Virus record (IMG/VR): IMGVR_UViG_3300009553_000039
Location: 1 to 44,503 of that record
Direction: 5' to 3' (one strand)
Origin: a virus
DNA: 44,503 nt
A program made the translations under genes and the position numbers. Within the stretch, counting starts at the first letter, position 1; the number at the start of each line of letters is the position of its first letter. A model generated the notes under the pieces. That model had not been told where the DNA came from, did no database searches, and saw only the letters and a program-made list of their open reading frames with translations. Below are positions 1 to 22,300 of this stretch, one piece after another.

Positions 1-545
1 AATTCTGCTACGGTAGGCGCTTTGCCAGTCCCGGCTCTGGCTTTCTCGGCCTTAGCCCCTACTTCCTCTAGCACTTTTACCATCTTCTCATCCGGTAGGC
101 GCAGGATTTCCCGGTGTTGACTGAACGACAGTGACGCCTGCCGTTTGTCCGCTGGTATCCGTCGCGCGCATTCAGCGTAGCCCTTAAGCGTGCTGAGCGC
201 CCGGCCCGTCTGATTCAACGCCACTGAATACTTCGTGCCCCATTTGCCCTCGCCGAAGTTCAGGATGTCGCCCAGCATGAATCCGACATGCTCTTGCAGC
301 GAGTTGGTATGATCCAAGATCGCCAAGTTTTCCTCGATGGTCGTATCTTCCGACAACACGACACCGAGACTGTTTTCCATGATCGTTACGCGATCTCTGA
401 AGATTTCCGCAACTGATCGTGTCAAGGGTTGCAGCACCAAAGGTTCTGCGTCCGCTTTTTCTTGTTCTGCTTTCCTGATTGCATCCGCGCCTGCCGCGAG
501 TGCATCTTTGCCGCTTTTCTTTGTCTTTGCTTTTTTCTTTGCCAT
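1..545 (-). CDS. Phage protein with DUF3102/ParB-accessory-like region, 3' end outside window
   Basis: Open reading frame from an ATG at 545 that runs off the left edge, about 181 codons seen. The first 30 residues are Lys/Ala rich and disordered. The middle has an FGEGKWGTKYS motif and further on a RRIPADKRQASLSFSQH stretch. The pattern 'kWG.kY ... ip...R...LsfS.H..i..L' is familiar from phage and plasmid DNA-binding or partition-like proteins (DUF3102-like, recalled from memory). A role in DNA binding is inference. It is the most downstream gene of the early region in this window and follows the small HTH gene by 25 nt. Confidence 0.7.
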   Translation of the reverse strand, partial: MAKKKAKTKKSGKDALAAGADAIRKAEQEKADAEPLVLQPLTRSVAEIFRDRVTIMENSLGVVLSEDTTIEENLAILDHTNSLQEHVGFMLGDILNFGEGKWGTKYSVALNQTGRALSTLKGYAECARRIPADKRQASLSFSQHREILRLPDEKMVKVLEEVGAKAEKARAGTGKAPTVAE

Positions 546-570
546 ATACTTTCTCTGTTGTGTCTCTTTG

Positions 571-813
571 TTAGGTTGTAGCGACCGCTGCCGACACCCG
601 CTTAGATCGCTTTCTGATGTTCTTATCTCGCCAAGCTTGGAGTTGTAGCAACGGCTCAGCCCTAGGATTAAACTTGCGTAGCCGTACCCAATCGTACACT
701 TGATTGTAGCTGCGGCCCAACTCCCTCGCCAAGTCGCCTAATGTTTTACCGTCGCGCTTTAAGCACGCTTCGATGTCATCAAACAACTTTTTGATCTCAT
801 CCATAACGCCCAT
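571..813 (-). CDS. Small helix-turn-helix DNA-binding protein
   Basis: 80 aa. Residues about 25-50 (TLGDLARELGRSYNQVYDWV) read as a helix-turn-helix of the XRE/AlpA style: a 'LAreLGrsynqVydWv' recognition helix followed by a basic tail (KNIRKRSKR). Probably a transcriptional regulator, and a candidate for binding the shared early operators described below, but no evidence links them directly. The ATG at 813 has an AGAGG Shine-Dalgarno about 10 nt upstream; an alternative ATG lies three codons in. It is separated from the upstream gene by only 6 nt. Confidence 0.7.
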   Translation of the reverse strand: MGVMDEIKKLFDDIEACLKRDGKTLGDLARELGRSYNQVYDWVRLRKFNPRAEPLLQLQAWRDKNIRKRSKRVSAAVATT

Positions 814-819
814 TTTACA

Positions 820-1002
820 TTAACCTCTGTTGTTGTGCAAATTATTAGTTGAACTAAGTTTCTGTTTCCCATACGCCCGTTCCCGTAGCCGTCGCTGCCG
901 CCCCTCGTCGCACTCTGCGCTACCGCATGTTATGTGACCATCCAGCGCAGGCCTGCCGCACTGTGGGCATGTCGGCCAATCGTAAGGATATTCAGTATTC
1001 AT
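820..1002 (-). CDS. Small zinc-finger protein
   Basis: 60 aa. CPQCG at residues 12-16 and C-x(6)-C further on (TCGSAEC) form a likely four-cysteine zinc-binding site; the C-terminus is basic and disordered. Its ATG overlaps the stop of the upstream gene (ATGA), indicating translational coupling. No function recognised. Confidence 0.6.
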   Translation of the reverse strand: MNTEYPYDWPTCPQCGRPALDGHITCGSAECDEGRQRRLRERAYGKQKLSSTNNLHNNRG

Positions 1003-1423: not shown

Positions 1424-1929
1424 AACGTTCCTTTCATATTACCGCTTAATGCAGTCATTGATAACAATGTAGCGCATGGATCAACCGTATAGTTAAAGCG
1501 CTTATTTCCTACCGCGTTCTCCCAAAAATAATCCGGCATACGATATTCTGGTGTCCAGATCAGTCCGGCTAGTTCTCGTGCCTGTTGTGGTTGATAAGAC
1601 ACTGACAAATCAACGATCTCCCCACTATCCGGCAATCCGCTCCATACATGCATTTCCGGCCAAATACCGTTTGCCAGCATGAAGTATGCGGATTTCTTAC
1701 TGAACATATAGCTGAAATGCGTCGTATTCTCGCCCGTATCATGGCAGAATTGAAATTGCGCTGATCCGGCTTGCAACAGAGCATCCAAGCCGTGTCTCTT
1801 GGCCGCCTCGTTGAATGCAGCCGCCCAATACAAACAAGAGCGTTGCTTTGGCTTATCGCTATACCGTCGCTGATATATGTCGCGCGCCTCAGATACGACC
1901 ACAACCTTTATATCTTTATTCAAACACAT
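1420..1929 (-). CDS. Hypothetical protein with possible Cys-His-Asp catalytic triad
   Basis: 169 aa. A cysteine at the start of a helix (RSCLYWAAAFNEAAKRHG, C32), then MHVWS (His at about 94) and EIVDLSV (Asp at about 108) are arranged as in transglutaminase/papain-like enzymes, where C-H-D form the active site. The spacing is compatible but the family is not recognised by name, so an enzymatic role is inference. Starts at ATG 1929, overlapping the upstream gene by 14 nt. One GCGACGG 7-mer lies in it (plus-strand 1864). Confidence 0.65.
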   Translation of the reverse strand: MCLNKDIKVVVVSEARDIYQRRYSDKPKQRSCLYWAAAFNEAAKRHGLDALLQAGSAQFQFCHDTGENTTHFSYMFSKKSAYFMLANGIWPEMHVWSGLPDSGEIVDLSVSYQPQQARELAGLIWTPEYRMPDYFWENAVGNKRFNYTVDPCATLLSMTALSGNMKGTL

Positions 1930-2167
1930 ATTTCCTATCCAGACATTTTGCGCCCGCCCTCGATACGCCTATCCCTGTTATCGTCGCTCCGGCCTTCAGT
2001 GCCTTAATGTATTCAATAAAATCGTGTGCATCGTTTCCTATTACAGTGAATCGCAACGATACGTCAAAAAGCGCTTCGTAACTAACAGACCCGTCGCTTT
2101 CTTCGCGCCTAGTTGAGAATACAGGCCCGCATTCCTTGGCAGACCAGTCTTGTAGCAATGCTTTCAT
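1916..2167 (-). CDS. Hypothetical protein
   Basis: 83 aa when started at the ATG at 2167, which overlaps the upstream stop (ATGA). Begins MKALLQDWSAKECGP. Mixed alpha/beta composition, no motif recognised. In-frame start codons further upstream lie inside the neighbouring gene and are less likely. Confidence 0.6.
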   Translation of the reverse strand: MKALLQDWSAKECGPVFSTRREESDGSVSYEALFDVSLRFTVIGNDAHDFIEYIKALKAGATITGIGVSRAGAKCLDRKYVFE

Positions 2168-2457
2168 TCGTTTATGATTTCCTCGTCGCTCAGCTTGTCC
2201 GTCTCTACGAATATCCACACATTAGGCCGATAGGGATAACCGTGTAGGTCTAACTTTCCACGTAGATTTCTGTGCAGCACTCCGATCCTGCGATATTTCA
2301 GCTTGCGCCGTCGCGCTTCGTTCACTATCACCTCGCGTTCAGCCGTATCATACAAACCATTCGGATTAACGAATGGCTTGTTGTCTAAGTGACCGCCAAT
2401 CACGGGTTTTAGTATTTCGCCCGTGCTCAATATGATCTGTTCAGGAAGATTGCTCAT
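2164..2457 (-). CDS. Hypothetical protein
   Basis: 97 aa from the ATG at 2457, overlapping the upstream stop. Contains a basic stretch (ARRRKLKYRRIGVLHRNLRGK) and an aromatic C-terminal half. Not recognised. Coupled by ATGA overlaps on both sides. Confidence 0.6.
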   Translation of the reverse strand: MSNLPEQIILSTGEILKPVIGGHLDNKPFVNPNGLYDTAEREVIVNEARRRKLKYRRIGVLHRNLRGKLDLHGYPYRPNVWIFVETDKLSDEEIINE

Positions 2458-2666
2458 AATTTCACCCTCTTGCCGTACGAGACACCGAGAAGGAAAATGT
2501 AACAAGCTAACCTAGCCACTGTTGGACATATACCGCTATTCGGAAATACGTCCCGCCGTCCGTCGCCATCTTTAACTACCCGATACCCGCTGCACTCGTG
2601 CTGAATGATTAACCCATGTTCAGCAGCGAGCGCGTTTAACTCTCTTGTAGATATTCTCGGATTCAT
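2454..2666 (-). CDS. Hypothetical protein with C-terminal hydrophobic segment
   Basis: 70 aa. N-terminal half is hydrophilic (STRELNALAAEHGL); the C-terminal end has a moderately hydrophobic stretch (LACYIFLLGVSYG) that could be buried or membrane-associated. Starts 3 nt after the stop of the 298-aa gene. Function unknown. Confidence 0.6.
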   Translation of the reverse strand: MNPRISTRELNALAAEHGLIIQHECSGYRVVKDGDGRRDVFPNSGICPTVARLACYIFLLGVSYGKRVKL

Positions 2667-2668
2667 CC

Positions 2669-3565
2669 CTAGTCATCAAAACTGAATTGCCTAGCTGGTT
2701 TATCCACGATCATCTTATCCAATTCCTTCTGGATTGTCTCAAAACCCTTCTGGACACTCTCGCGAATGCCGTCGCTCTCGCGCAGAAATTCCGGTGTAAC
2801 CCCGGCGATTGCCTGCCGCGCCTGATCCACAAGCTTTTTCAACTCCGCGTCATCGGCGATGTTTCGCGCGTTAAACGTGTTGAGAAAATCTGACACATTG
2901 CCAACCAGTGAATCGTAAATCTTTTTTTTCTTGCCGTCTTTGGATGGTGTTAACTGTGTCACCATACGTTTGACCAGCGCCGCCATTTGAACCCGGAGCA
3001 CCGTCTTGATTTCTTCCGCCGCGTCATCCATCATCTTAGCGAGTTTTCCTTTCTCGCTTTCAAACAGCCCGGCCCGGAGATTCTTTAACGCGTCTGGTGT
3101 TGCGAACGTGACATAGCGCCACGTCAGCCCAAATCGTTCGCAGGCTTGATCTGCCGTGAGGTAGTCATTGATATTCGCCAGACCGTTCAAACGCGTTACA
3201 GCCTCAGCTACGCGCTCTGTGTATGCCTTCCGAAACTTCTCGACTAACGCCCTGCGTTCCGTCGCGCGTTCCTTCATGTAATCATCAACCTCAACGACCA
3301 GTGTATTCGGCACGCGAAATACACCCTCTTTGAATAAGCTTGGAAGCGCTCGCGTTGCCAGCCATGCACGGGTTTTGCCGTCATGCGTCTTGATCGCGTC
3401 ATACTCCCTCGCGTCCAAGAGGTTCTTGTTAACGTGCAGCATCGACTTGTCCGCATCGACATCGATCTGCGATGTACTGACTTTCCGCGTATTACCTAGC
3501 CGATGGAAACCGACTACCAGCAATACGCTTTTGTCATCCAATGTTTTCTTGTTCTGTTCACTCAT
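2669..3565 (-). CDS. DUF3150-like helical phage protein
   Basis: 298 aa, largely helical, with many charged residues. N-terminal part has a beta-rich stretch (SVLLVVGFHRLG) and a middle YLTADQACERFGLTWRYVTFATP. The layout resembles DUF3150-type phage proteins that often sit near AAA+ ATPase genes, recalled from memory and not certain. The ATG at 3565 lies only 5 nt after the -10 box of an early promoter, so the mRNA is probably leaderless. Codons around residues 33-38 contain a degenerate copy (13 of 16) of the window-wide palindrome (3453-3468). Confidence 0.65.
   Translation of the reverse strand: MSEQNKKTLDDKSVLLVVGFHRLGNTRKVSTSQIDVDADKSMLHVNKNLLDAREYDAIKTHDGKTRAWLATRALPSLFKEGVFRVPNTLVVEVDDYMKERATERRALVEKFRKAYTERVAEAVTRLNGLANINDYLTADQACERFGLTWRYVTFATPDALKNLRAGLFESEKGKLAKMMDDAAEEIKTVLRVQMAALVKRMVTQLTPSKDGKKKKIYDSLVGNVSDFLNTFNARNIADDAELKKLVDQARQAIAGVTPEFLRESDGIRESVQKGFETIQKELDKMIVDKPARQFSFDD
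3453..3468. repeat. Degenerate copy of the 16-bp palindrome
   Basis: GCATCGACATCGATCT matches 13 of 16 positions of GTATCGACATCGATAC; the inner ATCGACATCGAT core is intact and the outer bases have changed. It lies inside a coding sequence. It may be a decayed or weak site. Confidence 0.5.
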
Positions 3566-3570
3566 ATACT

Positions 3571-3598
3571 ATATTAGCACATCTACCAATACATTCAA
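3571..3598 (-). promoter_or_regulatory. Early promoter with operator, leaderless start
   Basis: Reading the minus strand: TTGAAT (-35), 16 bp, TAATAT (-10), then 5 nt and the ATG at 3565. The spacer holds the shared operator TTGGTAGATGTGCTAA. A start codon this close to the -10 box predicts transcription starting at or next to the A of ATG. One of seven promoters with the same build. Confidence 0.7.
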
Positions 3599-3853
3599 TC
3601 ACACGATTACGTGTTTCCTGAGAAATTTTACCTCAGCATCCAGCGCCGTCCGTCGCGTCGTAAAGCCCCGCAGTGTAGGCCCGCTGACTGGCGATAGATC
3701 GGCATACCAGCCGCCGTGCTCTGGCTCAACGTGCGAAGCCCTGCGCGTTTCTACGTCCGCTTGTGAGAATAGCGCTGTCAATGCGTCATCGTAAATCGCT
3801 TTGATCCGCCCGGCCTTAATAACTAGCTTTAGCGTTTTGCTTGGCTTGCTCAT
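3599..3853 (-). CDS. Conserved small phage protein (RASHVEP / ADLSPVxGP family)
   Basis: 84 aa with signature pieces RASHVEP (about residues 38-44) and WYADLSPVSGP, followed by TRRTALDAE. I recognise this as a small hypothetical family repeatedly seen in environmental phages near DUF1257/DUF2997 genes; no function is known to me. It overlaps the upstream DUF2997-like gene by 38 nt and ends just upstream of the next promoter. Confidence 0.7.
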   Translation of the reverse strand: MSKPSKTLKLVIKAGRIKAIYDDALTALFSQADVETRRASHVEPEHGGWYADLSPVSGPTLRGFTTRRTALDAEVKFLRKHVIV

Positions 3854-3998: not shown

Positions 3999-4459
3999 AA
4001 AACTTGAACCTTTCGTTCCTGTTGCACTGTCTTAACCCTGAAACCCTTTCGCGCCATCTGCTTGCGTGCGACTTCAGCCGCGTACCAGTCTTTAAGTTTG
4101 TCAGCGTTGGGTTTCTGCGCCTTGCCCGGATACTGCACCGTCGCGCACAAACCATGACCACCAGCCCAATTATCCCATACCAGCCTGTAACCGGGTTTAC
4201 CGTCAGTCCGTGCTACCAGCCCGATTTCGTAAGCCCGCGCGTTGCCCTTTACCCTGATCGCATGTTCGCACTTGCCGTAGTCTTTGGTGTCAACGCCCTG
4301 CCGATACGCTGCATCCCGCCCTTTGTAATCGCCAACCCATTGCCCGTACCACTTGAAAGTTTTTTGCCCGCGCACCAATTCAAGCCCTAGTCGTTCACAG
4401 GCTTTTTCTAGTGAATCAAGATCAGTGATAAACAGATCAATTAACGTTACGTGTGACAT
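3986..4459 (-). CDS. Ycf35-like (DUF1257) protein
   Basis: 157 aa. N-terminus 'LIDLFITDLDSLEKACERLGLEL', middle 'YEIGLVARTDGKPGYRLVWDNW' and C-terminal 'RKGFRVKTVQQERKVQV' follow the layout of DUF1257/Ycf35: a domain starting with a lone helix that pairs L/A/G, an 'iGlv...dG.Y.lV.D.w' core and a terminal 'GF.v...' strand. Function of the family is not established. The ATG at 4459 is 7 nt after an early -10 box (leaderless). The gene starts the DUF1257-DUF2997 pair, with the AAA+ gene two genes upstream. Confidence 0.75.
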   Translation of the reverse strand: MSHVTLIDLFITDLDSLEKACERLGLELVRGQKTFKWYGQWVGDYKGRDAAYRQGVDTKDYGKCEHAIRVKGNARAYEIGLVARTDGKPGYRLVWDNWAGGHGLCATVQYPGKAQKPNADKLKDWYAAEVARKQMARKGFRVKTVQQERKVQVLCSK

Positions 4460-4466
4460 ATATTGT

Positions 4467-4878: not shown

Positions 4879-6401
4879 TAGTCGAACCTCATTTCCCGTT
4901 TTGGTACCACTACCGTTTGTTTGTTTTTCCGATAAAGCCCCTCGTAGTTAGCGCTGATAAAAGCGTTGTCCGCCACGTTTCGCAATGCCTCGATTGCCAT
5001 TGGATCAGTCTTGCAGATCGGTGTCGCATACTTCGCTGATTCCACTATTGAGCACTTGAACATTGCTGCCCGCTTGCAGCAGTTAAAGATGTCAGCGCCA
5101 GTCCAGCCCGCGCCGTCGATGTCGTTAGGATTACCTTTCAACCCAAATTTCTTCAGATAGAATTTCCAGATCGCGGCCCGTTCTTCCTGCGTAGGAAGAT
5201 CAAAGAAAAATGTTCCGAGTGTAAACCGTCGCTTCAGTTCCGGCGGCATGCTGTCACCCATGATCTTATTGCACGTTGCGATGTAAAGCGCTCGGCCCTG
5301 ACTGACTGAATCAATCACTTTCATTGCCGCCCTGATGGCTTGCTCTGAATCTCCGACATGACGCCCCTTCATAGCTCCCAAGTCCAGCGAGATAGTTACC
5401 ACGCCTGCCGTGTTCCCCGTCGCTTTGGCGACCATGCTTTTCGCGCTGCCGGGATGTCCAACAAACAGGATGCCTTCAGCTTTTTTATCCTGCATTTCCT
5501 TCAGCAGCACGGCAAGTTGATCTTGCGTTGTGCCTGACGAATCGCCAGAAGCGCCGCCAAGCGCTTTCTCTATTTCATCAATAAATACAACACCGCGCGG
5601 CTGCATACCGCCGATAACCTTACCCACAAAGTTCTTGATGTTTGAGCAACCCTGAACGTCATCTAGTGTTTCACCGTCGCGCCAGACCGTCAACCCTTGC
5701 GTTTCCTCGATTGCCTGCCGCTTGCGATCCCAAAGAGTGACCGGGTTAAGCACGACACCTTTACCGTTCTTTTCAAAGCTTACCGCTACAGTCTGTTCCG
5801 CCGAGAAGGCGGACAACCCAGAGAGCGCATCTACGGCGCGATCAATGCCCTCGCTTGTCACACCATCAAATTTTACGCCTGATTCCTTAGCGCCAACTTG
5901 GGCATGCGAAATTTGCGCCTCAACAATGTCGCGCAACTGCGCTGCATCCGGCAACTGTTCGTCAATTGCCAGAATGTCGTTTGAAAGCTCTATCGGCGTC
6001 CGCATCTGAGGCGCGAGCAAAACCAACATCCTGTGTTCGCTCTTGTTTGTGTCGCGTAAATTCCAGATGCCTTGTAGCACCGTTGAATCGTCAACGAATC
6101 GTTGAGCGTTATGCATGAACAACACGGAATGCTTCGGAAGCTTTTGCGCTGCGTCCAGCATGTCAGGCGGATTACCGATACCGATACCCTGCCCGCCTTT
6201 GCCCATTGCCTGATCGTTTACTGGCATGACACCGCGAACGATGTCCCACGAGAAGATAGGATAATCCGCCTTCTCGCTGTTCTTAACCGAGCTAATCGTT
6301 GCTGCTGCGTCCGGTGTTTTCCAGACAACCAGAGGAACGCTTACCCGTCGCGCTGCGTTATACTGCTTTAATGTTTCACTCATAATTTCTCTCTCACTCA
6401 C
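4878..6401 (-). CDS. Ycf46-like AAA+ ATPase with Walker B placed before Walker A
   Basis: 507 aa. Residues about 60-230 resemble the N-terminal non-catalytic part of Ycf46 (HSVLFMHN..., 'lap.mrtPieL..dila.deqLP'). The C-terminal ATPase has, in order: Walker B FIDEIEK (about 273-279), Walker A GHPGSAKS (about 315-322), a 'vGdSEqaiRaamk' helix, sensor-1 ATCN (about 373), RRF arginine finger (about 392), FFFDLP and a GWTGADI sensor-2 region. In ordinary AAA+ proteins Walker A precedes Walker B, so this core is rearranged. All catalytic motifs are intact. Start: GTG at 6401 is 5 nt after the -10 box (leaderless); ATG at 6383 is an alternative behind a weak purine run. Probable role: ATP-driven remodelling together with the DUF1257/DUF2997 neighbours; substrate unknown. 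Confidence 0.85.
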   Translation of the reverse strand: MSEREIMSETLKQYNAARRVSVPLVVWKTPDAAATISSVKNSEKADYPIFSWDIVRGVMPVNDQAMGKGGQGIGIGNPPDMLDAAQKLPKHSVLFMHNAQRFVDDSTVLQGIWNLRDTNKSEHRMLVLLAPQMRTPIELSNDILAIDEQLPDAAQLRDIVEAQISHAQVGAKESGVKFDGVTSEGIDRAVDALSGLSAFSAEQTVAVSFEKNGKGVVLNPVTLWDRKRQAIEETQGLTVWRDGETLDDVQGCSNIKNFVGKVIGGMQPRGVVFIDEIEKALGGASGDSSGTTQDQLAVLLKEMQDKKAEGILFVGHPGSAKSMVAKATGNTAGVVTISLDLGAMKGRHVGDSEQAIRAAMKVIDSVSQGRALYIATCNKIMGDSMPPELKRRFTLGTFFFDLPTQEERAAIWKFYLKKFGLKGNPNDIDGAGWTGADIFNCCKRAAMFKCSIVESAKYATPICKTDPMAIEALRNVADNAFISANYEGLYRKNKQTVVVPKREMRFD

Positions 6402-6848: not shown

Positions 6849-7228
6849 TTCTGAAGCCGTCGCAGCCGGGCCGCCAATCCCTCTATACCCGTTTCTACAA
6901 ATTCAGCCCACTTCACCCACTGATTCGGCCCGCCGCAGTAATCCCTGCGACCTTTGCACGTCCGATAATAAAATCCGCCCATGCCGCAATTGTCATGCAA
7001 GCCAAGGTAGAGAGTATCCGTGTGTAGCGTGTTATCCCCCGATACCGCGATACCGCCCGGATTCCAGCGAATATCGTATTCGCCTTTCGCCAGTCCCAGC
7101 GCTTCCGCCGTCGCCTTTAGAATCTTACGACCAAGCTTTTTGTATTCGTTTTTGGCAGCATCGTTATATCCCGCCGTTGACGAAAGTGCTGCGAATCTCG
7201 CCAGTATGGTTTTGTTTATCGTTGTCAT
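6845..7228 (-). CDS. Conserved hypothetical phage protein
   Basis: 127 aa. Distinct region 'YDIRWNPGGIAVSGDNTLHTDTLYLGL' followed by 'YRTCKGRRDYCGGPNQW', a pattern I recall in other phage hypothetical proteins. Several Cys, His and Asp residues are conserved-looking, but no catalytic set can be named. ATGA overlaps with both neighbours. Confidence 0.7.
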   Translation of the reverse strand: MTTINKTILARFAALSSTAGYNDAAKNEYKKLGRKILKATAEALGLAKGEYDIRWNPGGIAVSGDNTLHTDTLYLGLHDNCGMGGFYYRTCKGRRDYCGGPNQWVKWAEFVETGIEGLAARLRRLQK

Positions 7229-8177: not shown

Positions 8178-8374
8178 AAAATCATCGCACCGTCGCCGAC
8201 CTGAAGCGCCGCGTAAAGTCGCTCATCCATATCGTCCATGCGCTCTTTGGCAGCCTTGCGCTTCAGCCCTTCGATTTCCCGAATCGCCTGCCCGTCCGTC
8301 AAATTGTAAGTCAGCCCGTAGTGCTGTTTAATCTTACGCTTCGCCATCGACATTTGAAGTGATGTCATAATCAT
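8174..8374 (-). CDS. Hypothetical protein
   Basis: 66 aa, two predicted helices separated by 'GLTYNLTDGQAI', strongly basic (KRKIKQ, KRKAAKERM). ATG at 8374 overlaps the stop of the 22-codon ORF. Unknown; may bind nucleic acid. Confidence 0.55.
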   Translation of the reverse strand: MIMTSLQMSMAKRKIKQHYGLTYNLTDGQAIREIEGLKRKAAKERMDDMDERLYAALQVGDGAMIL

Positions 8375-9196: not shown

Positions 9197-9308
9197 GTTT
9201 CACCGTCGCTGTTACTTTGGCCTGCGCTTCCTTGGCCCACGCTCCCGAATCCTTGCACGGCCCGCCGCATACCGGGCACTTGATTAGATATTTCGTCACT
9301 TCGTTCAT
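9153..9308 (-). CDS. 51-aa zinc-finger-like protein
   Basis: ATG at 9308 shares a base with the upstream stop (TGATG). CPVCGGPC at residues 11-18 is a metal-binding knuckle; the rest is basic and helical. The end overlaps the 49-aa gene. Unknown function. Confidence 0.55.
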   Translation of the reverse strand: MNEVTKYLIKCPVCGGPCKDSGAWAKEAQAKVTATVKHDSKRSQKINSSME

Positions 9309-9508: not shown

Positions 9509-9688
9509 TTAGTAGTCGCTCGCTTCCCCGAATTTTACGAAGTTGGGCGCATCAGGATCAGGGACTATTTTATCGATCAATTTATCGACTGCCCCGTTCA
9601 TGTAGGCGACGATTACCGGGATGTAAACCGTCGCGAACACCGCAAACATCGTCATCGTTTTCACTGATTCACTTAATGTCTCACTCAC
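9509..9688 (-). CDS. 59-aa single-pass membrane protein
   Basis: GTG at 9688, 6 nt after a -10 box (leaderless). Residues about 12-32 (MTMFAVFATVYIPVIVAYM) are a transmembrane helix; the C-terminal tail is acidic. First gene of a transcript. Function unknown, probably a membrane modulator. Confidence 0.65.
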   Translation of the reverse strand: MSETLSESVKTMTMFAVFATVYIPVIVAYMNGAVDKLIDKIVPDPDAPNFVKFGEASDY

Positions 9689-10095: not shown

Positions 10096-10249
10096 TGGTC
10101 GCCCTGACGTTGCCGTCGCTGTCAATCACTTTCGATTCGTTGTACTCGTTCAGCACGGCCCGCAGGAAGTCTATTAAGTTCGTTTCCGCGCCGCATTTCA
10201 AGCAAACGTTTTTACGCCCGCACAGTTCGCATTCTCCGTTGTTGTTCAT
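10085..10249 (-). CDS. 54-aa zinc-finger peptide
   Basis: ATG at 10249 overlaps the stop of the sigma-like gene. CELCG and CLKCG (residues 7-21) form a four-cysteine zinc site, followed by a helix 'NLIDFLRAVLNEYNESK'. Unknown, plausibly an interaction or DNA-binding module. Confidence 0.65.
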   Translation of the reverse strand: MNNNGECELCGRKNVCLKCGAETNLIDFLRAVLNEYNESKVIDSDGNVRATNAV

Positions 10250-10455: not shown

Positions 10456-10817
10456 TGCGCCAGATAATCCCGCCGCAGCTTCGATTCAGCGTATCGTTGC
10501 CAGTTCTTTAACATCGACACTGCGTTGCGTTTCAATTCCTCAGCCGTATCCCGCTCGCCTTGCGTGACTGTATCCATGATATTCAGGGCATCGATTGATC
10601 CAACTAGTTTACCCGCCGTTTTCAATGCCTGTATATCCTCGTTTAATTGCAGCGCCGCCACTGGCGTTTCTCGCTGTACGATCGCCTGTGCGGGCTTGGA
10701 CGCAGCCGGAGCGTGCTGGCGGACATGAGCGCCCTGCCGCGCATTCTGGCGCGATTCTCGCCGTCGCGCTGGTTGTTTCCGTAGTTCTTTGTCACGCCTG
10801 CTGAATACTCGCGCCAT
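10452..10817 (-). CDS. Basic hypothetical protein
   Basis: 121 aa. First 50 residues are Arg/Gln/Ala-rich and disordered; residues about 55-121 are helical (LNEDIQALKTAGKLVGSIDALNIMDTV ...). May bind nucleic acid through its N-terminus. ATGA overlap with the sigma-like gene. Unknown family. Confidence 0.55.
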   Translation of the reverse strand: MARVFSRRDKELRKQPARRRESRQNARQGAHVRQHAPAASKPAQAIVQRETPVAALQLNEDIQALKTAGKLVGSIDALNIMDTVTQGERDTAEELKRNAVSMLKNWQRYAESKLRRDYLAQ

Positions 10818-11414: not shown

Positions 11415-11878
11415 ACAGGTTTCGCCCCGTTTCCTTCCTTGGTCGCCGTCGCGGGCTTAACCTTCCTGCGCCGTGGCTTTTTCGGTTTCTCTGCCTTACC
11501 CTTGCCTGCCACAGCAAGCACAACATCGTTAGTATGCATCGATGGATCAACGCGTAACGCTTCAAACACAAACATATCGTGGTATGCCATTGCCTCTACA
11601 AAATCCTTGGTGGTTTTAAGCGTGCCGCTAATAATCGCTGGCTTTGCTTTCATGTCCGCCCGTCGCCTATTTATTTCACTCACGACTAACCCTAAATACT
11701 GCCGAAGATTGGCCGGGCTTACACCGTCACACGACATTTCCAGTTCCTTGTCGCCACGATGGACGTGCAAACGTGTGCCGTATTGCATGCCGCCTTTCTT
11801 GCGGGCTTTCTCCCATTTCATCACAGTTAATACCGCGCCCTCTGGCAAGGTTGTTGTTTCTTGTGCTGTTACTGTCAT
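11411..11878 (-). CDS. Hypothetical protein with basic tail
   Basis: 155 aa. Beta-rich first half (TRLHVHRGDKELEMSCDGV), a helical middle, and a disordered Lys-rich C-terminus (KAEKPKKPRRRKVKPATATK) that suggests nucleic-acid binding. Family unknown. Coupled on both sides by ATGA overlaps. Confidence 0.6.
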   Translation of the reverse strand: MTVTAQETTTLPEGAVLTVMKWEKARKKGGMQYGTRLHVHRGDKELEMSCDGVSPANLRQYLGLVVSEINRRRADMKAKPAIISGTLKTTKDFVEAMAYHDMFVFEALRVDPSMHTNDVVLAVAGKGKAEKPKKPRRRKVKPATATKEGNGAKPV

Positions 11879-12069: not shown

Positions 12070-12287
12070 GCCTTGCCTTTCATTGCTACAATCATAGGTA
12101 GCCTTCCTTGCCGCCGTCGCTTAAGGGCTTCCCTATAGTGAGCGCATGTGCTGAATGGATGTGTAAAGTCGTATGCCTCACAGCTACAGCCCTGATCTTC
12201 GCCTAACAAGCTTAGGATGTGTGTTACTTCCGGCCTTGTACGGCTCTTAACCAAGTAAGTTCCGATGTCAAAGGGTTGGAATGTCAT
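12063..12287 (-). CDS. SWIM zinc-finger protein
   Basis: 74 aa. 'CSCEAYDFTHPFSTCAHY' gives the C-x-C-x(n)-C-x-H signature of SWIM zinc fingers, used in DNA- or protein-binding. It follows an N-terminal 'YLVKSRTRPEVTHIL' beta unit typical of this fold. The rest is basic. Role probably DNA metabolism; partner unknown. Confidence 0.7.
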   Translation of the reverse strand: MTFQPFDIGTYLVKSRTRPEVTHILSLLGEDQGCSCEAYDFTHPFSTCAHYREALKRRRQGRLPMIVAMKGKAC

Positions 12288-12496: not shown

Positions 12497-12756
12497 TACA
12501 TTAGTTGTTTTTGAGGTAATTCGATCCACTGACTGTCATCGCATCCAAACCTACCCTTCGGAGTTATTACTTGCCGAAATAACCAACCCCCGCCGTCGCC
12601 GCTCACGTAATAACGCCTACCGCCCGGCCCTTCTACTAGTAGCCACTCTTGCGGTATCGATATGTAGATATAGCCCGGTGGTAACTGCGGTAAGTTACAG
12701 CGCAAAATGCTACCCCACAAAATTGCGGGTTTCTTCCCTACATAGATGTAGCTCAT
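12496..12756 (-). CDS. Hypothetical beta-rich protein
   Basis: 86 aa from ATG at 12756, overlapping the upstream stop. Proline/aromatic-rich (LPPGYIYISIPQEWLLVEG, GGRRYYVSGDGGGWLFRQV), likely all-beta. Family unknown. Confidence 0.55.
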   Translation of the reverse strand: MSYIYVGKKPAILWGSILRCNLPQLPPGYIYISIPQEWLLVEGPGGRRYYVSGDGGGWLFRQVITPKGRFGCDDSQWIELPQKQLM

Positions 12757-12974: not shown

Positions 12975-13432
12975 GATACAACACTCCCGTTAGCGATACG
13001 ATCTTCGCCAAGCCTAGCTATCATCTGATCTTTTGTTTCAGTGTTAAGGTGTAAGTTATACACCATCCGTTGATACAATCGGTATGCCGTCATTGCTATA
13101 TCTAGGTTGGGATGTCTATTGCCTATTACTTCTAAAGCGTGCATGGCATGTGAGTACCAGTGCTGCGGTAAATGTCCAAACTCAGATGGCTTGAACGGTA
13201 AGGGTGGTTCGCTGCGAAAAAACGATCCTTCCTCGTAATCTACCTCGCGAGGATCAGCCGGATTCATAAAGCACCAGCGAATAAATGCTGTTAGCCGTCG
13301 CCCCGGAGAATACGCTACCCCTGTCTTAGTCCATGTTTTAGGTTCTGAATCACAACCCCTTACTGCGGTCAATAACGTTCCTTGCTCGCGAAGTGGTAGC
13401 TCCATAACCCAATCCTGTAATACGCTTTTCAT
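12971..13432 (-). CDS. Hypothetical protein
   Basis: 153 aa. Mixed alpha/beta with Trp/Arg-rich stretches (LTAFIRWCFMNPADPREVDY) and a C-terminal helix region (LDIAMTAYRLYQRMVYNLHL). No signature recognised. ATGA overlap with the upstream gene. Confidence 0.6.
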   Translation of the reverse strand: MKSVLQDWVMELPLREQGTLLTAVRGCDSEPKTWTKTGVAYSPGRRLTAFIRWCFMNPADPREVDYEEGSFFRSEPPLPFKPSEFGHLPQHWYSHAMHALEVIGNRHPNLDIAMTAYRLYQRMVYNLHLNTETKDQMIARLGEDRIANGSVVS

Positions 13433-14096: not shown

Positions 14097-14302
14097 GCTT
14101 CACCTTTCCCTAGTGTTTGTTTCGGAATAACATGCGTACAGAATTGTTTGCCGTCGCGCCATTCAGTTATCTCGGTGCAGCCTTTAATTATCGCATACCG
14201 AATGGCTTGCTCGCGATCATGCCCTACTAACGACGCGGGTACACCGATCTCTGGTTTTAGATACCACGACTTATCTGCCATCTGTGTTAAATTGGCTTTC
14301 AT
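14093..14302 (-). CDS. Hypothetical protein
   Basis: 69 aa from ATG at 14302, overlapping the upstream stop. 'MADKSWYLKPEIGVPASLVGHDREQAIRYAIIKGC' then 'TEWRDGKQFCTHVIPKQTL'. Not recognised. Confidence 0.55.
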   Translation of the reverse strand: MKANLTQMADKSWYLKPEIGVPASLVGHDREQAIRYAIIKGCTEITEWRDGKQFCTHVIPKQTLGKGEA

Positions 14303-14511: not shown

Positions 14512-15920
14512 TTGCGCCTTGCTCGCTTTCTAGCTGGCTTAGATTTCTCCGGCGCTGGCTTAGATTCCTGCTCATACTTCGCCTTAAACATATTCCAGTT
14601 CACCGGGATACAGATGTCCAGCAGCACGTTTAGCGGCATATCATCCAGCGACTTCCACTGATCTACCCCCGGCATGTCGTGGTAGATATACTTAATGAGG
14701 TAGCTAACAGCTTGTTCCTCGGTTAACACCATGCCGTCTATTCGTTGGCGCAGATCGCTTATAGCTGCGGCCTTAGCGCCTATATCCTGAGCGGACGGGG
14801 ATTGATCCTGAGTTGCCGCACGGTCTTGTGAGGCTGCCTCAGTTTCTACGCCATGAGTTTCAGTATGCGCCGATTTTACTCCGTCTGGCTTTTGATCGCC
14901 GCCGCCCAAGCTATGTGCAAATTCAATTGCTTTCTTAAGTCGAATATCGTCCTCGCTGGATAATGGGCTTAGCTTCGGTATCCACTTGTTATACAGCCAT
15001 TCGACTACTTCCTTCGGCAACTCTCCAACTTTTTTACCAAGCATGTTGCCACCGGGTTTACCAAAATGCGCCACGCGATCCTTGTAGTTGCGTTCTGTTA
15101 CGTTAATCGGCCCGTAATCATTAACCTCGTGCGCTTCATAGGTTATACCGTCTGGTGTTTCCAGAGTAATAGCCTTACCATCTGTCTCGGTAAATGTCTC
15201 TCCCGTAGCGTTAGCCGTCGCCTCTCGCACGTTGCGCTCTATTATCTCTGCCTGTGGTCGCTGGTCGCCGTTCTCTGGCTCAAAATCGTGTATCTCATCC
15301 TCTGTGTAGATACCAGCTACAAGACCCGGATTCATCGCACGCACGCCTTCTGTGAGACATCGCGCGTGCAACATCTGCCGTGGGGATTGCCGCCAGTTCT
15401 TTTTCAGCTTCCAGTCGCCTTTCTCTGTGTCCCATGAACACGCTACGCGTTTCTCTACTGCATCCTTAAACGTCCTGATAATTGTAATCTCACCGGGTAG
15501 CTGTAACTCGGATGCATCTTGGTTGGCTTTCAGTTTTTTGTAACGCGCCACCGCGCCTTTGACTGCCGATGTCGAATCTTTTAACATCGCGTGCTTATTA
15601 CGCCAGAATGTAGCAGAGCATTCGGTATCATCGCGCACATGCCAGAGTATCGCGCCTTCGCGTTCAAACTCGCCCTGTAGTGCGTCCGCCCTATACGCGG
15701 GCTTGCCTTCGATCAAGTGATACCGTCGCAGCGCCATCACTGGATGGATGCCTTCGGCCTGACAGAGTAACATGAGCGCCATTGCCTGTGCTTCGCTCTT
15801 GATGCCAAACATACCGCTTTCAGCGATTGCCTTCGCCATTATCTGCATGTCAGCAAGTGCTACAGGATGCTCATGCCTGACTGTTACTTGTCGCCCCGGC
15901 TCTGTAGCTTCGCTACTCAT
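14508..15920 (-). CDS. RecT-family single-strand annealing protein
   Basis: 470 aa. N-terminal region carries the RecT-like pattern: 'iMAKAIAESGMFGIKSEAQAMALMLLCQAEGIHPVMALRRYHLIEGKPAYRADALQ...', then an acidic/Trp stretch, and 'W...SPRQMLHARCLTEGVRAMNP' ending the core (about residues 190-205). RecT proteins pair complementary ssDNA in phage recombination and replication. The C-terminal ~200 residues are polar and charged with a basic tail (KPARKRARRK). A DUF1351-like gene upstream and a nuclease-like gene downstream fit a recombination module. Confidence 0.8.
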   Translation of the reverse strand: MSSEATEPGRQVTVRHEHPVALADMQIMAKAIAESGMFGIKSEAQAMALMLLCQAEGIHPVMALRRYHLIEGKPAYRADALQGEFEREGAILWHVRDDTECSATFWRNKHAMLKDSTSAVKGAVARYKKLKANQDASELQLPGEITIIRTFKDAVEKRVACSWDTEKGDWKLKKNWRQSPRQMLHARCLTEGVRAMNPGLVAGIYTEDEIHDFEPENGDQRPQAEIIERNVREATANATGETFTETDGKAITLETPDGITYEAHEVNDYGPINVTERNYKDRVAHFGKPGGNMLGKKVGELPKEVVEWLYNKWIPKLSPLSSEDDIRLKKAIEFAHSLGGGDQKPDGVKSAHTETHGVETEAASQDRAATQDQSPSAQDIGAKAAAISDLRQRIDGMVLTEEQAVSYLIKYIYHDMPGVDQWKSLDDMPLNVLLDICIPVNWNMFKAKYEQESKPAPEKSKPARKRARRK

Positions 15921-16081: not shown

Positions 16082-16314
16082 CCTGTCTTTAGATGTAGTT
16101 GTTGCGCATCCCATTGAAGGTATGCGTCTTTTATTAAGCCTTTATTGATACATGACTTAAGACCTTCGTACACCGCTGGCTCTAGCGCGTCACATATCTT
16201 GCGATGCAACGCAGTTATTTCGGGCTTGTCATCGTGCCTGCCTGTCTGAAATACGCGCATCGCTACGAACACCCCGTTAGATGTTTCTCCACTTATCTGA
16301 ATTGATAACGTCAT
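16078..16314 (-). CDS. Hypothetical protein
   Basis: 78 aa. 'VFVAMRVFQTGRHDDKPEITALHRKICDALEPAVYEGLKSCINKGLI' is mixed alpha/beta. Located between the DUF1351-like gene and the small basic gene with overlaps on both sides. Unknown. Confidence 0.55.
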   Translation of the reverse strand: MTLSIQISGETSNGVFVAMRVFQTGRHDDKPEITALHRKICDALEPAVYEGLKSCINKGLIKDAYLQWDAQQLHLKTG

Positions 16315-17102
16315 CGTATGTGCGTCTTTGTTTCTTCGTACACCCTCAATCCCGCAGGCTGCACCAGCCGTCGATCATCGCTCTTGGAAAGTTCCTCTGG
16401 AAAGCGTGTCTTATGGAAACATCCGGCGCAATCCTCGCGGTTTAACTCATCCAGTATCCGCATGCGATCCAGCTTCAACGTCTCGGTATCCGCGTGCCAT
16501 TTCCAGAAGTCCGGCCAAGCCTGACAAAACACGATAGCGTCCAGCACTTGAAAGTTTATCTTGTTGCGCACTACAAGCCCCTTTGGTTTCTCGATGCCCG
16601 GCACTACCGCTAGCTCGGTACTCATTTCCAAATCTAGTGCCTGCGCCTCTAGCTTTTGTGCCTCGGCTTCCGTGTATTTATTGGTAGCGCTGGCGCGTAG
16701 GTTGGCTGCCTGCTGGCGCAACTTGGCGGCTAGCGATTCCTGACTATTGATTTTATCCTGCTCTGCCGCTCTCTCGCGTGCCAGCTTTTTCTGGTAGTGG
16801 TTGATAAGCCCTGACAATCGCCCATGCTGTTTTTCGACTTCTCGAATAAATCCATGCGCCGTATTATCGATCTCTCTACCCAGCGCGAGCACCGGCGCTT
16901 TGACTGTCTTGCGGGTTTGCTCCATACCGACTATAACAGCCTTAACCTCGCGAAGCGCCGCTACAGCCGCTATCTGCTGCGCTGGCGTTTCTACCTTAGC
17001 GATTGAGCTAGCCGCCTTTATCGCTTTGCGCTTTAATTCATACGCGTCCGGTGTTACTTCGATCTTCCCGGCAAAATCGCGTAATACTAATGGCGCATGC
17101 AT
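16311..17102 (-). CDS. DUF1351-like recombination-associated protein
   Basis: 263 aa from ATG at 17102, preceded by GGTGG 8 nt upstream (the GTG at 17117 would be 5 codons longer). Long helical region 'EVKAVIVGMEQTRKTVKAPVLALGREID...' and a coiled-coil (KINSQESLAAKLRQQAANLRASATNKYTEAEAQKLEAQAL), then a C-terminal domain with a possible C-x-x-C (CAGC). The layout resembles DUF1351 / Siphovirus Gp157-type proteins, often encoded next to RecT. It is the second gene of the early transcript. Confidence 0.65.
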   Translation of the reverse strand: MHAPLVLRDFAGKIEVTPDAYELKRKAIKAASSIAKVETPAQQIAAVAALREVKAVIVGMEQTRKTVKAPVLALGREIDNTAHGFIREVEKQHGRLSGLINHYQKKLARERAAEQDKINSQESLAAKLRQQAANLRASATNKYTEAEAQKLEAQALDLEMSTELAVVPGIEKPKGLVVRNKINFQVLDAIVFCQAWPDFWKWHADTETLKLDRMRILDELNREDCAGCFHKTRFPEELSKSDDRRLVQPAGLRVYEETKTHIR

Positions 17103-17106
17103 AGTT

Positions 17107-17421
17107 TCACCACCCACAGATAGTTGCTATCACTACCACCACTAAGATGATAACCCATATCCAAAACGCGATCCAGTCACAAGTCATGCCTCGCGTATCG
17201 ACATCGATACATTTTACCCTGCGTAGGGCGTGATTAAAGCGCGGATCGTTGGAAAGTGGCGCAGGCCTGTACCTAGCCTTGCGTTTCACTTTGACTTTTA
17301 CTACCCTTGGCGCGGGCTTAGGATCGCTTAGCGGGTACTCGTGAACAGAGATAGTTGGTGTGACTTGATCTCTGCGACGAAAGTATTGTGTTACTTTCTT
17401 ATACCAAGGACGGGATTCCAT
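17107..17421 (-). CDS. C-terminally anchored membrane protein
   Basis: 104 aa, ATG at 17421. Basic cytoplasmic part (KVKVKRKARYRPAPL), then CIDVDT encoded by a palindrome copy (17195-17210), and a C-terminal membrane helix (DWIAFWIWVIILVVVVIATI). First gene after the early promoter at 17447-17474. A GTG 9 nt after the -10 box begins a 12-codon ORF (17399-17437) that overlaps the start in another frame and might act as a leader peptide. Confidence 0.65.
   Translation of the reverse strand: MESRPWYKKVTQYFRRRDQVTPTISVHEYPLSDPKPAPRVVKVKVKRKARYRPAPLSNDPRFNHALRRVKCIDVDTRGMTCDWIAFWIWVIILVVVVIATICGW
17195..17210. repeat. 16-bp palindrome copy (GTATCGACATCGATAC)
   Basis: Exact copy, CA orientation, 88 bp before the end of the 104-aa membrane protein gene. 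Confidence 0.9.
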
Positions 17422-17474: not shown

Positions 17475-17498
17475 ATTCGATTTTCTACGAGAACTAAC

Positions 17499-17589: not shown

Positions 17590-17937
17590 CTACGGTTGTC
17601 TAGCCCTTTCTGAGATAATACGCATTACCTCGCACTTCATCGCAGTGCGCGGCATGGCTTCAAGTTTCTTGTGGCAGTTAAAGATACATGCTAGCACGGT
17701 TATATCTAACTGGTCGCCCCTAAGAAATCGGCGCTTGTCGTAATGTGCGAACGACAACCCGTAGTCACCCTGACAGCCCGGATACCCTACCTCGCAACGC
17801 GTTATCCCGGCCCGCTCAAATCGAACCTTCAGCTTGGCCCGCCGTCGCGTCCATTCGTTTGTACGCTTCCCGGCCCTAAGAGTGCTGTAACTCAAATTGA
17901 TATACGTCGCCGTTACGCACGATGCGGGCAGCGACAC
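17590..17937 (-). CDS. HNH-type endonuclease-like protein
   Basis: Up to 115 aa. A CEVGYPGC knuckle (about residues 48-55), 'SFAHYDKRRF' and 'LACIFNCHKKLE' fit an HNH fold, with C-x-x-C-like zinc residues and a terminal C-H-x-x-L-E. The start is uncertain: 17937 overlaps the lysin gene by 62 nt; TTG at 17895 would give 101 aa. In late phages HNH enzymes often assist terminase or are homing-type. Confidence 0.65.
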   Translation of the reverse strand: MSLPASCVTATYINLSYSTLRAGKRTNEWTRRRAKLKVRFERAGITRCEVGYPGCQGDYGLSFAHYDKRRFLRGDQLDITVLACIFNCHKKLEAMPRTAMKCEVMRIISERARQP

Positions 17938-18397
17938 CCGGCCAAATCCGATATAAAATTTCCTGTGTATCCAGTCCGCCGTTTCCGTTCTCTGGCGCTG
18001 GCAAACCTAACTCGCGTAGCGCCGCAGGACTTAACTCGCCAATCTTGGATGACGGCCCGCTGTCGCCTACCACGCAGCCAACAATCTTATCCTCGTATTC
18101 AGCCGTGCCCACGCATCCGCCGACGATTTCCGCAGTCATCTTAATCATCTGTGGCGGCACTACAATGTAAGGAATGATGTCGCCATTGATCGGTTTTCCT
18201 TTGTACGTCCAGCGCGTGCCCGGTTGACCGTATTTGTCTTTATTCCAGTATGGTGCGCCATCTACATCGTTATCTGCGTCACCAAACCAGAAATAACACG
18301 GCTTCCCGTTTAACATACGGCTATCATCCCGAATGATGTTAGCGTAATAAACGTACTGCGCGTTTTCCGCGCTACGATGAGTATAGATGAGTTTCAT
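17876..18397 (-). CDS. GH75 (chitosanase)-type lysin candidate
   Basis: 173 aa. 'YFWFGDADNDVDGAPYW' (acidic cluster D40-D46), 'IPYIVVPPQMI', 'GCVVGDSGPSSKIGELS' (GDSGP 111-115, KIGE 118-121) match the catalytic region I recall for glycoside hydrolase family 75 chitosanases and their bacterial relatives. It would hydrolyse a polysaccharide of the host envelope. It follows the holin-like gene immediately (TAAATG), giving a lysis cassette. No signal peptide, so it probably needs the holin. Confidence 0.75.
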   Translation of the reverse strand: MKLIYTHRSAENAQYVYYANIIRDDSRMLNGKPCYFWFGDADNDVDGAPYWNKDKYGQPGTRWTYKGKPINGDIIPYIVVPPQMIKMTAEIVGGCVGTAEYEDKIVGCVVGDSGPSSKIGELSPAALRELGLPAPENGNGGLDTQEILYRIWPGVAARIVRNGDVYQFELQHS

Positions 18398-18703: not shown

Positions 18704-18742
18704 ACTTAAATTAACGGTTGCATCGCAGCTATTGTCAAAACT

Positions 18743-19069
18743 TTAGTTCGGCCCGAACAGCCTGAATGGTTTAGGCTTTTGCTTGATATACCTTGTCCTA
18801 GTCTTGGTTTTTGTTATCACCCGTGGTGTTGCCGTAGGTCGCGCATCCTGAATAGCTATATTTTTATCGCGTTGGGATTCCGCCCGCTTCAGAATCGAAT
18901 TGGCGAGCGTGTTATCTATTTGTGTGAAGCCCTCGATTGAATGCTGTTGATGCTCGGTTAATGCCGTCAGGATGCTATTCTGGCTATCGTGTGAGCAATA
19001 TGTGTGAGCACACAAAATAACAAATATAAGCGTCATAATAACGCGGTTATAGCCGGATGTTCGCGTCAT
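18743..19069 (-). CDS. Membrane-anchored basic protein
   Basis: 108 aa. N-terminal hydrophobic segment (VIMTLIFVILCAHTYC, residues 10-25), a helical centre (LTEHQQHSIEGFTQIDNTLANSILKR) and a very basic tail. Start overlaps the upstream stop (ATGA at 19066-19069). Might be a spanin-like or antiholin component of the lysis group; unproven. Confidence 0.55.
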   Translation of the reverse strand: MTRTSGYNRVIMTLIFVILCAHTYCSHDSQNSILTALTEHQQHSIEGFTQIDNTLANSILKRAESQRDKNIAIQDARPTATPRVITKTKTRTRYIKQKPKPFRLFGPN

Positions 19070-19347
19070 TTCTTCGTCTCGATTGATCGCAGACGTTTTT
19101 CCTGATCGTCGTCGTGCTTATCCAAAGTTACAAGCACGTCATCGATGTGAGTTAGTGTAGCTGTTAGTTTAGTCCATTGCTCTATCTGCTTGCCTTGATC
19201 TTCCAGATATTTTTCTTTGGACACAAACTCAGACCTTAACCAAAAGATTATGCCGATAACAAACATCCGAAACAACCATACTAACAATTGACCCGTACCG
19301 TTTGCTAGGGCCTTCTTGACGCTCTCAACCTTCTGGATGTCAAGCAT
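19066..19347 (-). CDS. Membrane protein with coiled-coil tail
   Basis: 93 aa. One strong helix (residues 20-38, LLVWLFRMFVIGIIFWL), then a long charged coiled coil (YLEDQGKQIEQWTKLTATLTHIDDVLVTLDKHDDDQEKRL). Probable lysis-cassette component (i-spanin or antiholin-like), assigned by position and layout. Confidence 0.6.
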   Translation of the reverse strand: MLDIQKVESVKKALANGTGQLLVWLFRMFVIGIIFWLRSEFVSKEKYLEDQGKQIEQWTKLTATLTHIDDVLVTLDKHDDDQEKRLRSIETKK

Positions 19348-19356
19348 ATCGCCCTT

Positions 19357-22300
19357 TTATGGAGCAGTCCTAAACCTGAATACAGAACCTATGTAAACCT
19401 TGGCCGTGCCGCTAGTTGTCTTAAGTGCCTTACATGAAATTGTAGGGCTTCCCGTGCTACCTGTTTTAATAAAACCCTTAAACGAAATCATGCCGTCGCC
19501 ATTAACTAAGAGACAAGGTGCGCCTGCCGTGTTGAGCGCATTAGACGATATTGATATTCCTGTTGCTGCTGCATTAGTAGCTGATCCTGCCCACACACCG
19601 ATCTGGCCCGATCCACCACCGGATTGCTGGACACCTACCGCCATGCCAGCCGTTGAACTGGAATTACAATACAACTGTGCATCAACTTCGTAGAGTGTAG
19701 CTGTGGCGAGCGTGCCGCTTACTAGCCCTGTAATATCAACTAACGATGTGCTGGACGTAGTAAAGTCTGAACCAGCTACTCTTAACTCAGTCCATCCACC
19801 CTTGTTTGATGTCGATGTCCAATTAGTTCCATCTGACTGCATGATGTTTCCAGACGTGCTAGGAGTAGCATACGTCTCAGTGGACATAACGAGATTCGTT
19901 CCATCGGATTTAACAACCTTGCCAGATGTTGAAGCGGCAGTAGGCCATGTCGGAGTGGACATGATAATGTTTGTGCCATCCGACTGCGCAAGCTTGCCAG
20001 AGCTACCAGCAGAAGTAGGGAGAGTGATAGTAGAATTATTGTATGCGCCGCCGCCATCACTTTGCAGAAACTTTCCAGTAGCAGGATTTGAATTATTAAC
20101 CCTGTACCCACTGGCCGCATTGATCCTGCCGCTACCGGGATCGCTTTGAGTGCCAACAGACAAGCTTCCGTTTCCGTTAGTCTGACTATACAGATACATC
20201 TTGTTAGCTAGTCCGCTATTGCCGTTATACATGCCAAAGCGCATGATTGAATCTGCACTCGCATGGGTAGCGTCGATCCAGTCAGCCTCTATTTGTGCAA
20301 TGCTAACATTGGCAGTCGTGGAATCATCGGCAGTAAGCAAAATTCCTACTCCGAAATTCGGTGCAGGCGTTCCGGCAGCCGTTTCCTGACGGCGCACCGT
20401 TAAAGCGTTTACTACAGTGTTAACCGTAGTGTTGCTTGCCGCAGCATCCAGCCCGGTCGTAGTGGCGTATGTTAACTTACTATCACCCGTTAGTGCGTTT
20501 GTCCCGCTTGCAAAAGCGACCTGTGGACTGGTTATTGATCCACCTGTAGCAACAACCCCGCTAGAATCAACACTGACAAAACCAGCAGTGCCTAAATCCA
20601 AAACATTTACTTTTCCATCATCATCGGTATCGAAGGTGTGCCCCCAATCGTAAACGGCATTCTTGGATGGCGCGATAGTTGTCACGGTATCCCACGATGA
20701 GGCGAATGCTGTGTCGGAAATGTAGGTGGAATTTAGGTAATCAGTTCCAAGTACCGCGAGGCTTAAAACTCCGCTTGAATCCGTCTTTGGAATCCCTGCC
20801 GCTAAATCTAGCACGTTAACCTTGCCGTCATCGTCAGTATCGAACGTATGCCCCCAATCATATACTGCATTCTTAGATGGAGCAGTTGTAGTAACTCCAT
20901 TCCATGATGATGCGAAAGCCGTATCGTCAACTGATCCTGAAGGTGTTGCCAACTCGAAATCCGTTTCACCTGCATTAACGCGGACAACCTTTAGTGCATT
21001 CCCTGTGTAACTAAGACCAGCCAGTGAAGCTAGCTGTGTATCGAAAGCTTGGACATCTGTGCCTATGACCTTTGGTGTTTGCAACACTCCACCAGCATCA
21101 GTGAAAGCAAGACCTGCAACTTGATCTAAAACGTTTACCTTACCATCATCATCGGTATCAAAGGTGTGCCCCCAATCATACACAGCGTTCTTGCTCGGAG
21201 CAATACCTGTTACGCCATTCCATGATGAAGCGAAAGCCGTGTCACTTACTAAGGCATCAGCATAAGCTGTCGTTGCGCCCTTAGTGCTGTTATCTCCGGC
21301 AGACTGAGTTGCTATCCTGAGTAACCCAAGTGAGCTAGATTCCGGGCCTTGATAAATACCTACACCGCCCGCCTCGGAGCGACCAATCGCTGTGTCTCTA
21401 GTCCCTGTGTAATACGTAGCGCCATCTGTCCACATGATACGTGGAGTGCCAAACACGGGAAAGCCTGCCATCTGAAGAACCCCGTATTGATTGGCATACA
21501 AGGCGGCAATATCAGTTCCATTCCCCAAGATGGCATAGTCCAGAATGTTAAACGCGGCAAAAGAGCAAGTAGCATCACCGCCGCCCTGTCCAAGATTGCC
21601 AGCTTGATCTATCTGTATGTAGTGATTACTCCAACCCCCGCCGTTTTCTTGATGCTGGATAAACAAAATAGACCCCGCATCGCCGCCTGCCGTTCCAAGA
21701 GGATAGTTAAGGAAACGCCAGTCTGCACTCTGACTGGCATTCGCATTGATAGACCAAGCCTGCCCTGTCATTACTATAACAGGCGCAACTTGACTACCAT
21801 CTAAGGCTGTGGCTGTTGTTAGATTTCTTAATACCAGCCCATCGGCGCTATTACCCCCCGGTGGTGCGAGCGTTAAAGTTATGGCGTTACTCGTAACAGT
21901 TCCATAATCAAAGTTGGATGTAGCAGCGAATGCGCCTGATCCATTGTTATACTGAACATCGCCAGCGCCGCCTGCCGCAGCAATATCTCCAACATACAAA
22001 AAATCTCCATCTGTTACCGCCGTATTGAATTGCGCCTTTGTTCCAGTGATACCTACGATGCTGGTCTGATCCCCTGTGTTAGTTCCCTGAATAACGGCAC
22101 TCTGGCTCACGGTAAGATTTCCACTGAGATCAATCGTCCTGTCGCCGCTATTAACCTTATAGTTAATCGTACGATCGGACACTACAGATGCTTCATTCCA
22201 TTTATGAATCAATGCTGTGGATGTCGATAGGTCTGCTGATCTCAGAGCAGTGTTATCAAACGTTCCTGTAATGAATCCAGCACCTATATCCGATCCGTTC

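Follow-up and report, generated by a model that had tools for sequence, protein, structure and literature searches.

Why should an uncultivated tailed phage carry one seven-base word 32 times on a single strand and within a single arm of its genome? The question is raised by the IMG/VR virus record IMGVR_UViG_3300009553_000039, analysed here over its whole length of 44,503 bases (the window), in which the larger genes lie on the minus strand and the heptamer GCGACGG, seen as CCGTCGC on the plus strand, is crowded into the early, non-structural arm. The answer to which the counts, the comparison with related phages and the place of the terminase genes point is that GCGACGG is probably a Chi-like polar recombination hotspot for a RecBCD/AddAB-type end-processing enzyme of the host.

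Exact counting on the plus strand gave 32 copies of CCGTCGC, the first starting at 159 and the last at 19493, and none of GCGACGG; all 32 copies, that is, have the form GCGACGG on the gene-encoding strand. The recount (32:0) bears out a preliminary description of the sequence, which had reported about 32 one-way copies in the first 19.5 kb, as do the numbers per successive 5 kb from position 1 (11, 9, 8 and 4) and the zero in the remaining 25 kb. A sense-strand Markov model, built with the motif masked, predicts about 3 copies for the left 19.6 kb, where 32 were observed, and about 2.6-3 for the right part, where there are none; for the opposite strand, taken over the full window, it predicts about 1, again against none. 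Codon-preserving shuffles, the check that had been suggested at the outset, did not reproduce the count on the left arm (mean about 8, maximum 14, against the real 32), even though that mean is too high because the motif's own codons remain in the shuffled pool; for the right part they gave a mean of about 2.4, with zero copies in 6-10% of the shuffles, and dinucleotide shuffles of the full window, counted on both strands, a mean of 8.06 and a maximum of 18. In an unbiased scan of 6- to 9-mers, early arm versus rest, GCGACGG ranked first. The enrichment on the left and the single orientation are far beyond chance. The zeros on the right and on the opposite strand are mildly informative and weaker evidence, because the expected numbers there are low (about 3 and about 1, respectively); the claimed absence from the right holds as a count and lies near the composition expectation of about 2.4-3.

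The signal is a short, exact and non-palindromic word. No position in the flanks of the 32 copies carries much information, the core being exactly 7 bases, and one-base variants of GCGACGG are not enriched on the left, so that a longer or degenerate motif is not supported. The copies fall, as had been described, in all reading frames (12, 9 and 7, plus 4 outside the chosen open reading frames, ORFs), at irregular intervals averaging about 0.5 kb. The earlier impression of a gradient rather than a block is only suggestive in the window, where the density over 1-19.5 kb is compatible with a uniform one (Kolmogorov-Smirnov p=0.30) and the fit of a step model is slightly better than that of an exponential.

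Relatives were gathered by terminase searches and form a small phage group, to which further searches with the major capsid protein, RecT and exonuclease added no member. One of them, G001 (44,950 bases, terminase large subunit TerL 77% identical), has identical 127-base ends and maps as a circle of 44,823 bases. The window aligns collinearly with it only when closed into a circle, the junction running from window 44.5 kb (G001 29.7 kb) to window 0.04 kb (G001 32.0 kb); window position 1 is thus on the upstream side of the terminase genes, and the window lacks about 2.3 kb. The landmark that the preliminary description had expected to the left of the sequence is accordingly the terminase and packaging start, found across the circular junction beyond position 1. 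Taking the TerL strand as the transcription-sense reference for polarity, G001 carries 35 sense and 0 antisense copies, on the same strand and the same side of the terminase as in the window, an agreement in bias and density that had been named beforehand as a check; GCGACGG ranks first in the k-mer scan of this genome as well. Its nearest copy lies 2.4 kb upstream of TerL, 30 of the 35 lie within 18 kb, and the counts per 5 kb moving upstream are 7, 13, 7, 3, 2, 1, 0, 2 and 0, a profile fitted equally well by exponential and step models, with stray copies in the structural genes too. In an 18-kb fragment, G002, the sense bias is 12:1 and the first copy stands 633 bases upstream of the presumed small subunit, TerS, while two further partial relatives (L025 and L026) have sense-only copies, the majority upstream of TerL. 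The sense:antisense ratios with respect to the terminase genes in the window and its relatives are 32:0, 35:0, 12:1, 3:0 and 5:0, and, moving upstream from the presumed TerS, the dense edge of the cluster is reached after 0.6-1.4 kb, the DNA end being placed by gene order.

The copies are also conserved at homologous sites. Where the window can be aligned with G001 (70% identity), it has 6 copies, of which 5 recur unchanged in G001, compared with 12% of all 7-mers, which indicates purifying selection on the motif; of the 9 G001 copies in the reverse comparison, 5 have an exact counterpart in the window.

These observations would be accounted for if selection had favoured the build-up of GCGACGG in the arm that lies upstream of the packaging start. 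The terminase would cut replicated DNA at cos or pac, with the terminase side held for packaging and the upstream side, from window position 1 onward, left as an open double-strand end. The host helicase-nuclease would enter at this end, move toward higher window coordinates and meet each GCGACGG from its 3' side, which is the active orientation of Chi; it would then halt degradation and load recombinase, so that the concatemer would be saved and become available for recombination. Relative to the terminase genes, the 3' side of every window copy does come first from such an end. The confinement to one strand and one side, and the thinning with distance, would follow because, on this proposal, the copies nearest the open end matter most. 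Reading of the motif by a phage-encoded end-processing machine, instead of that of the host, is less likely.

The proposed arrangement has its models among the coliphages. RecBCD of Escherichia coli is loaded at open double-strand ends, and for Chi (GCTGGTGG) to be recognised the enzyme must arrive from its 3' side; the cutting of lambda cos leaves the right end alone open, because terminase occludes the left one (PMC2082072). The window shares with this Chi-cos system the polarity, the open end upstream of cos and the reading of Chi from the 3' side; it differs in that wild-type lambda is without Chi and the system was experimental, whereas the arrangement is natural in the window phage. In lambdoid coliphages, Chi is concentrated between the origin and replication genes and the cos/terminase region, and displaced toward cos where the phage has a recombinase and no RecBCD inhibitor (Bobay, Touchon and Rocha 2013, PMC3784561). 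The common feature is a short non-palindromic motif in excess between the early/replication genes and the terminase, and the window phage, with RecT, an exonuclease and no recognised RecBCD inhibitor (nor an integrase) among the 46 early ORFs examined, matches the Rec+Inh- class; the motif itself differs (GCGACGG instead of GCTGGTGG), and the window group is purer by strand and denser (32-35 copies per 45 kb). Of the control phages, HK225 (RecET, cos) has Chi in the ratio 8:0 on the terminase-sense strand, 4 of them within 4 kb upstream of the terminase. A recount of Chi in P1 gave 8:2 in the protective orientation over the 10 kb upstream of pac, an excess near the packaging site like that of the window, the differences being that the bias over P1 as a whole is weak (31:19) and that its Chi is the E. 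coli one. The Chi motifs of other bacteria, such as GCGCGTG, GAAGCGG, AGCGG, GNTGGTGG and GCTGGCGC, are likewise oriented G-rich words of 5 to 8 bases; GCGACGG is none of them, and none of the five has a comparable excess in the window by strand counts, positions not having been checked.

Several points weigh against a Chi-like role. In the phages HK97, HK620, phi80 and N15, the region upstream of the terminase shows no clear clustering of Chi in one orientation; three of these four controls (HK97, HK620 and phi80) carry RecBCD inhibitors, and the controls are small. The more distant relative G008 (TerL about 51% identical) shows no comparable bias (13:8), and no comparable substitute was found in its k-mer scan, so that another host or another strategy is needed for it. 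The position of cos or pac is taken from gene order only. To our knowledge, GCGACGG is not among the known Chi sequences, and none of the papers searched pairs GCGACGG with Chi. Alignments of the terminase against 84,980 bacterial and archaeal genomes, made to find the host, yielded no relative. Finally, the uniform direction of the genes makes the DNA and RNA readings inseparable by gene orientation.

The last point concerns the possibility that GCGACGG is an RNA element, bound in early and middle transcripts by a phage or host protein for antitermination, stability or translation control. It is true that every copy is in the transcribed, sense-strand orientation and within the early, non-structural arm, where the plausible genes run one way; nothing favours this reading, however, and it is improbable, the copies having no conserved flanking bases, no fixed position in transcripts and no Rfam match, being scattered along genes in all frames, and occurring as strays within structural genes in G001. 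Still less probable is a signal of replication or nicking, that is, a primase or priming site, or a strand-specific nick site as in T5- or phiKMV-like virions: the strict strand bias and the mean spacing would suit it, yet a priming signal is expected along the whole replicated strand and not in one arm ending at the terminase, the spacing is irregular, and the nick consensus sequences known to us differ from GCGACGG. Of the functions considered in the preliminary description, the directional, Chi-like signal is thus the best supported, and the primase site and the RNA site in early messengers are less so.

Evasion of a Type III-like restriction enzyme that needs two head-to-head sites, so that a phage would tolerate only one orientation, as T7 does with EcoP15I, would agree with the ratios of 32:0, 35:0 and 12:1. 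It is very improbable, as it predicts the loss of one orientation, whereas a tenfold gain of the other, conserved sites and a cluster next to the terminase are no part of that prediction; the kept orientation is strongly enriched here, and only about 1 copy would be expected on the opposite strand anyway. A mere consequence of composition or codon bias in the G-rich early arm can hardly be entertained: the sense strand is G-rich and its GC skew somewhat stronger on the left, but the Markov and codon-preserving nulls fall far short of the observed count and refute this explanation, one-base variants are not enriched on the left, and the sites are conserved in G001.

With a Chi-like hotspot retained as the preferred reading, we lean, less firmly, toward GCGACGG being the undescribed Chi of an unidentified, perhaps uncultivated, bacterial lineage, readable from phage genomes alone. 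The arrangement itself has precedents in coliphages, the sequence appears new, and the phage group is new to us. Two guesses at the host were tried and set aside. An acidobacterial host was suggested by an AAA ATPase that shares 34% identity with one of Tunturiibacter phage Tunturi_3; the motif occurs 3:3 in that phage, which lends no support, and in 152 kb of the Granulicella plasmid pACIX901, the species being a guess, 62 copies were seen against 44-53 expected, no clear excess. The other guess, a verrucomicrobial host, came from phage P8625, which gave the best full-length terminase match; GCGACGG ranks 183rd of 1338 in it.

The structural genes of the window extend down to about 19.4 kb and are followed by the RecT-like protein, the exonuclease, the AAA ATPase and many small genes; the main features are collected in Table 1. 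The presumed TerS, the ORF just upstream of TerL, has no family match and is named from position and synteny only; its homologues in G001 and G002 are located between TerL and the first motif copy.

Table 1. Genes, repeats and GCGACGG copies of the window, in window positions; the copies come from an exact-match listing
Feature	Position	Strand	Basis or remark
Terminase large subunit TerL (GpA type)	41959..43950	-	Pfam PF05876 3.1e-26; PHROG terminase large subunit 5.1e-46
Presumed terminase small subunit TerS	43919..44431	-	position only; synteny
Portal	37755-40931	-	1058 amino acids
Major head protein	35014-36096	-	
RecT-like single-stranded-DNA-annealing protein (phage recombinase)	14508..15920	-	PHROG_561 4e-17
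Probable phage exonuclease adjoining RecT	16311..17117	-	PHROG_10477 5.6e-6
16-bp near-palindrome copies	1013, 6709, 9783, 17195, 22716, 24443, 30906, 34558, 37646, 41966, 43901		
GCGACGG copy 1	159..165	-	exact match; conserved in G001
GCGACGG copy 2	749..755	-	exact match; conserved in G001
GCGACGG copy 3	889..895	-	exact match
GCGACGG copy 4	1864..1870	-	exact match
GCGACGG copy 5	2091..2097	-	exact match
GCGACGG copy 6	2308..2314	-	exact match
GCGACGG copy 7	2560..2566	-	exact match
GCGACGG copy 8	2769..2775	-	exact match
GCGACGG copy 9	3259..3265	-	exact match
GCGACGG copy 10	3650..3656	-	exact match
GCGACGG copy 11	4138..4144	-	exact match
GCGACGG copy 12	5226..5232	-	exact match
GCGACGG copy 13	5417..5423	-	exact match
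GCGACGG copy 14	5674..5680	-	exact match
GCGACGG copy 15	6345..6351	-	exact match
GCGACGG copy 16	6857..6863	-	exact match
GCGACGG copy 17	7108..7114	-	exact match
GCGACGG copy 18	8190..8196	-	exact match
GCGACGG copy 19	9203..9209	-	exact match
GCGACGG copy 20	9628..9634	-	exact match
GCGACGG copy 21	10113..10119	-	exact match
GCGACGG copy 22	10761..10767	-	exact match
GCGACGG copy 23	11446..11452	-	exact match
GCGACGG copy 24	11660..11666	-	exact match
GCGACGG copy 25	12114..12120	-	exact match; conserved in G001
GCGACGG copy 26	12593..12599	-	exact match; conserved in G001
GCGACGG copy 27	13295..13301	-	exact match
GCGACGG copy 28	14151..14157	-	exact match
GCGACGG copy 29	15215..15221	-	exact match; GCGACCG in G001
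GCGACGG copy 30	15723..15729	-	exact match; conserved in G001
GCGACGG copy 31	17842..17848	-	exact match
GCGACGG copy 32	19493..19499	-	exact match

Some other features of these genomes may be recorded here. The C-terminal approximately 170 amino acids of the portal ORF match halovirus ORFs annotated as zeta toxin or zeta toxin/ParB nuclease, and also a minor head protein of cyanophage PSS2. The 1139-amino-acid ORF at 19357-22776, with a marginal EF-hand match, contains a 161-nucleotide direct repeat in 3 copies (63-73% identity, 20555-21243), and the 173-amino-acid ORF at 17876-18397 (minus strand) has a weak, sub-threshold match to the chitosanase family GH75 and is possibly a lysis or wall enzyme. 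A 1119-amino-acid ORF in the motif-rich arm of G002 (L014 13245-16604, minus strand) matches no Pfam family, and no relative of it was found among the phages of the annotated collection. The 16-bp near-palindrome GTATCGA(TG/CA)TCGATAC occurs in 11 exact copies over both halves of the window, several at gene junctions, and resembles repressor stoperators or parS sites; G001 has 10 copies with the same arms and another core, mostly GTATCG(TTGG/CCAA)CGATAC, as though a change of specificity had taken place in the protein that recognises them.

Few bacterial groups have a known Chi sequence. That a different 7-mer stands here in a coliphage-like place and orientation suggests that Chi-based handling of the host end-processing enzyme at the packaging end may be general, and it offers a simple, testable route for reading a host's Chi from the genome of its phage. 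If this is true, the k-mer most enriched and most strand-biased upstream of the terminase would reveal the Chi of the host and would help to assign hosts to orphan phages.

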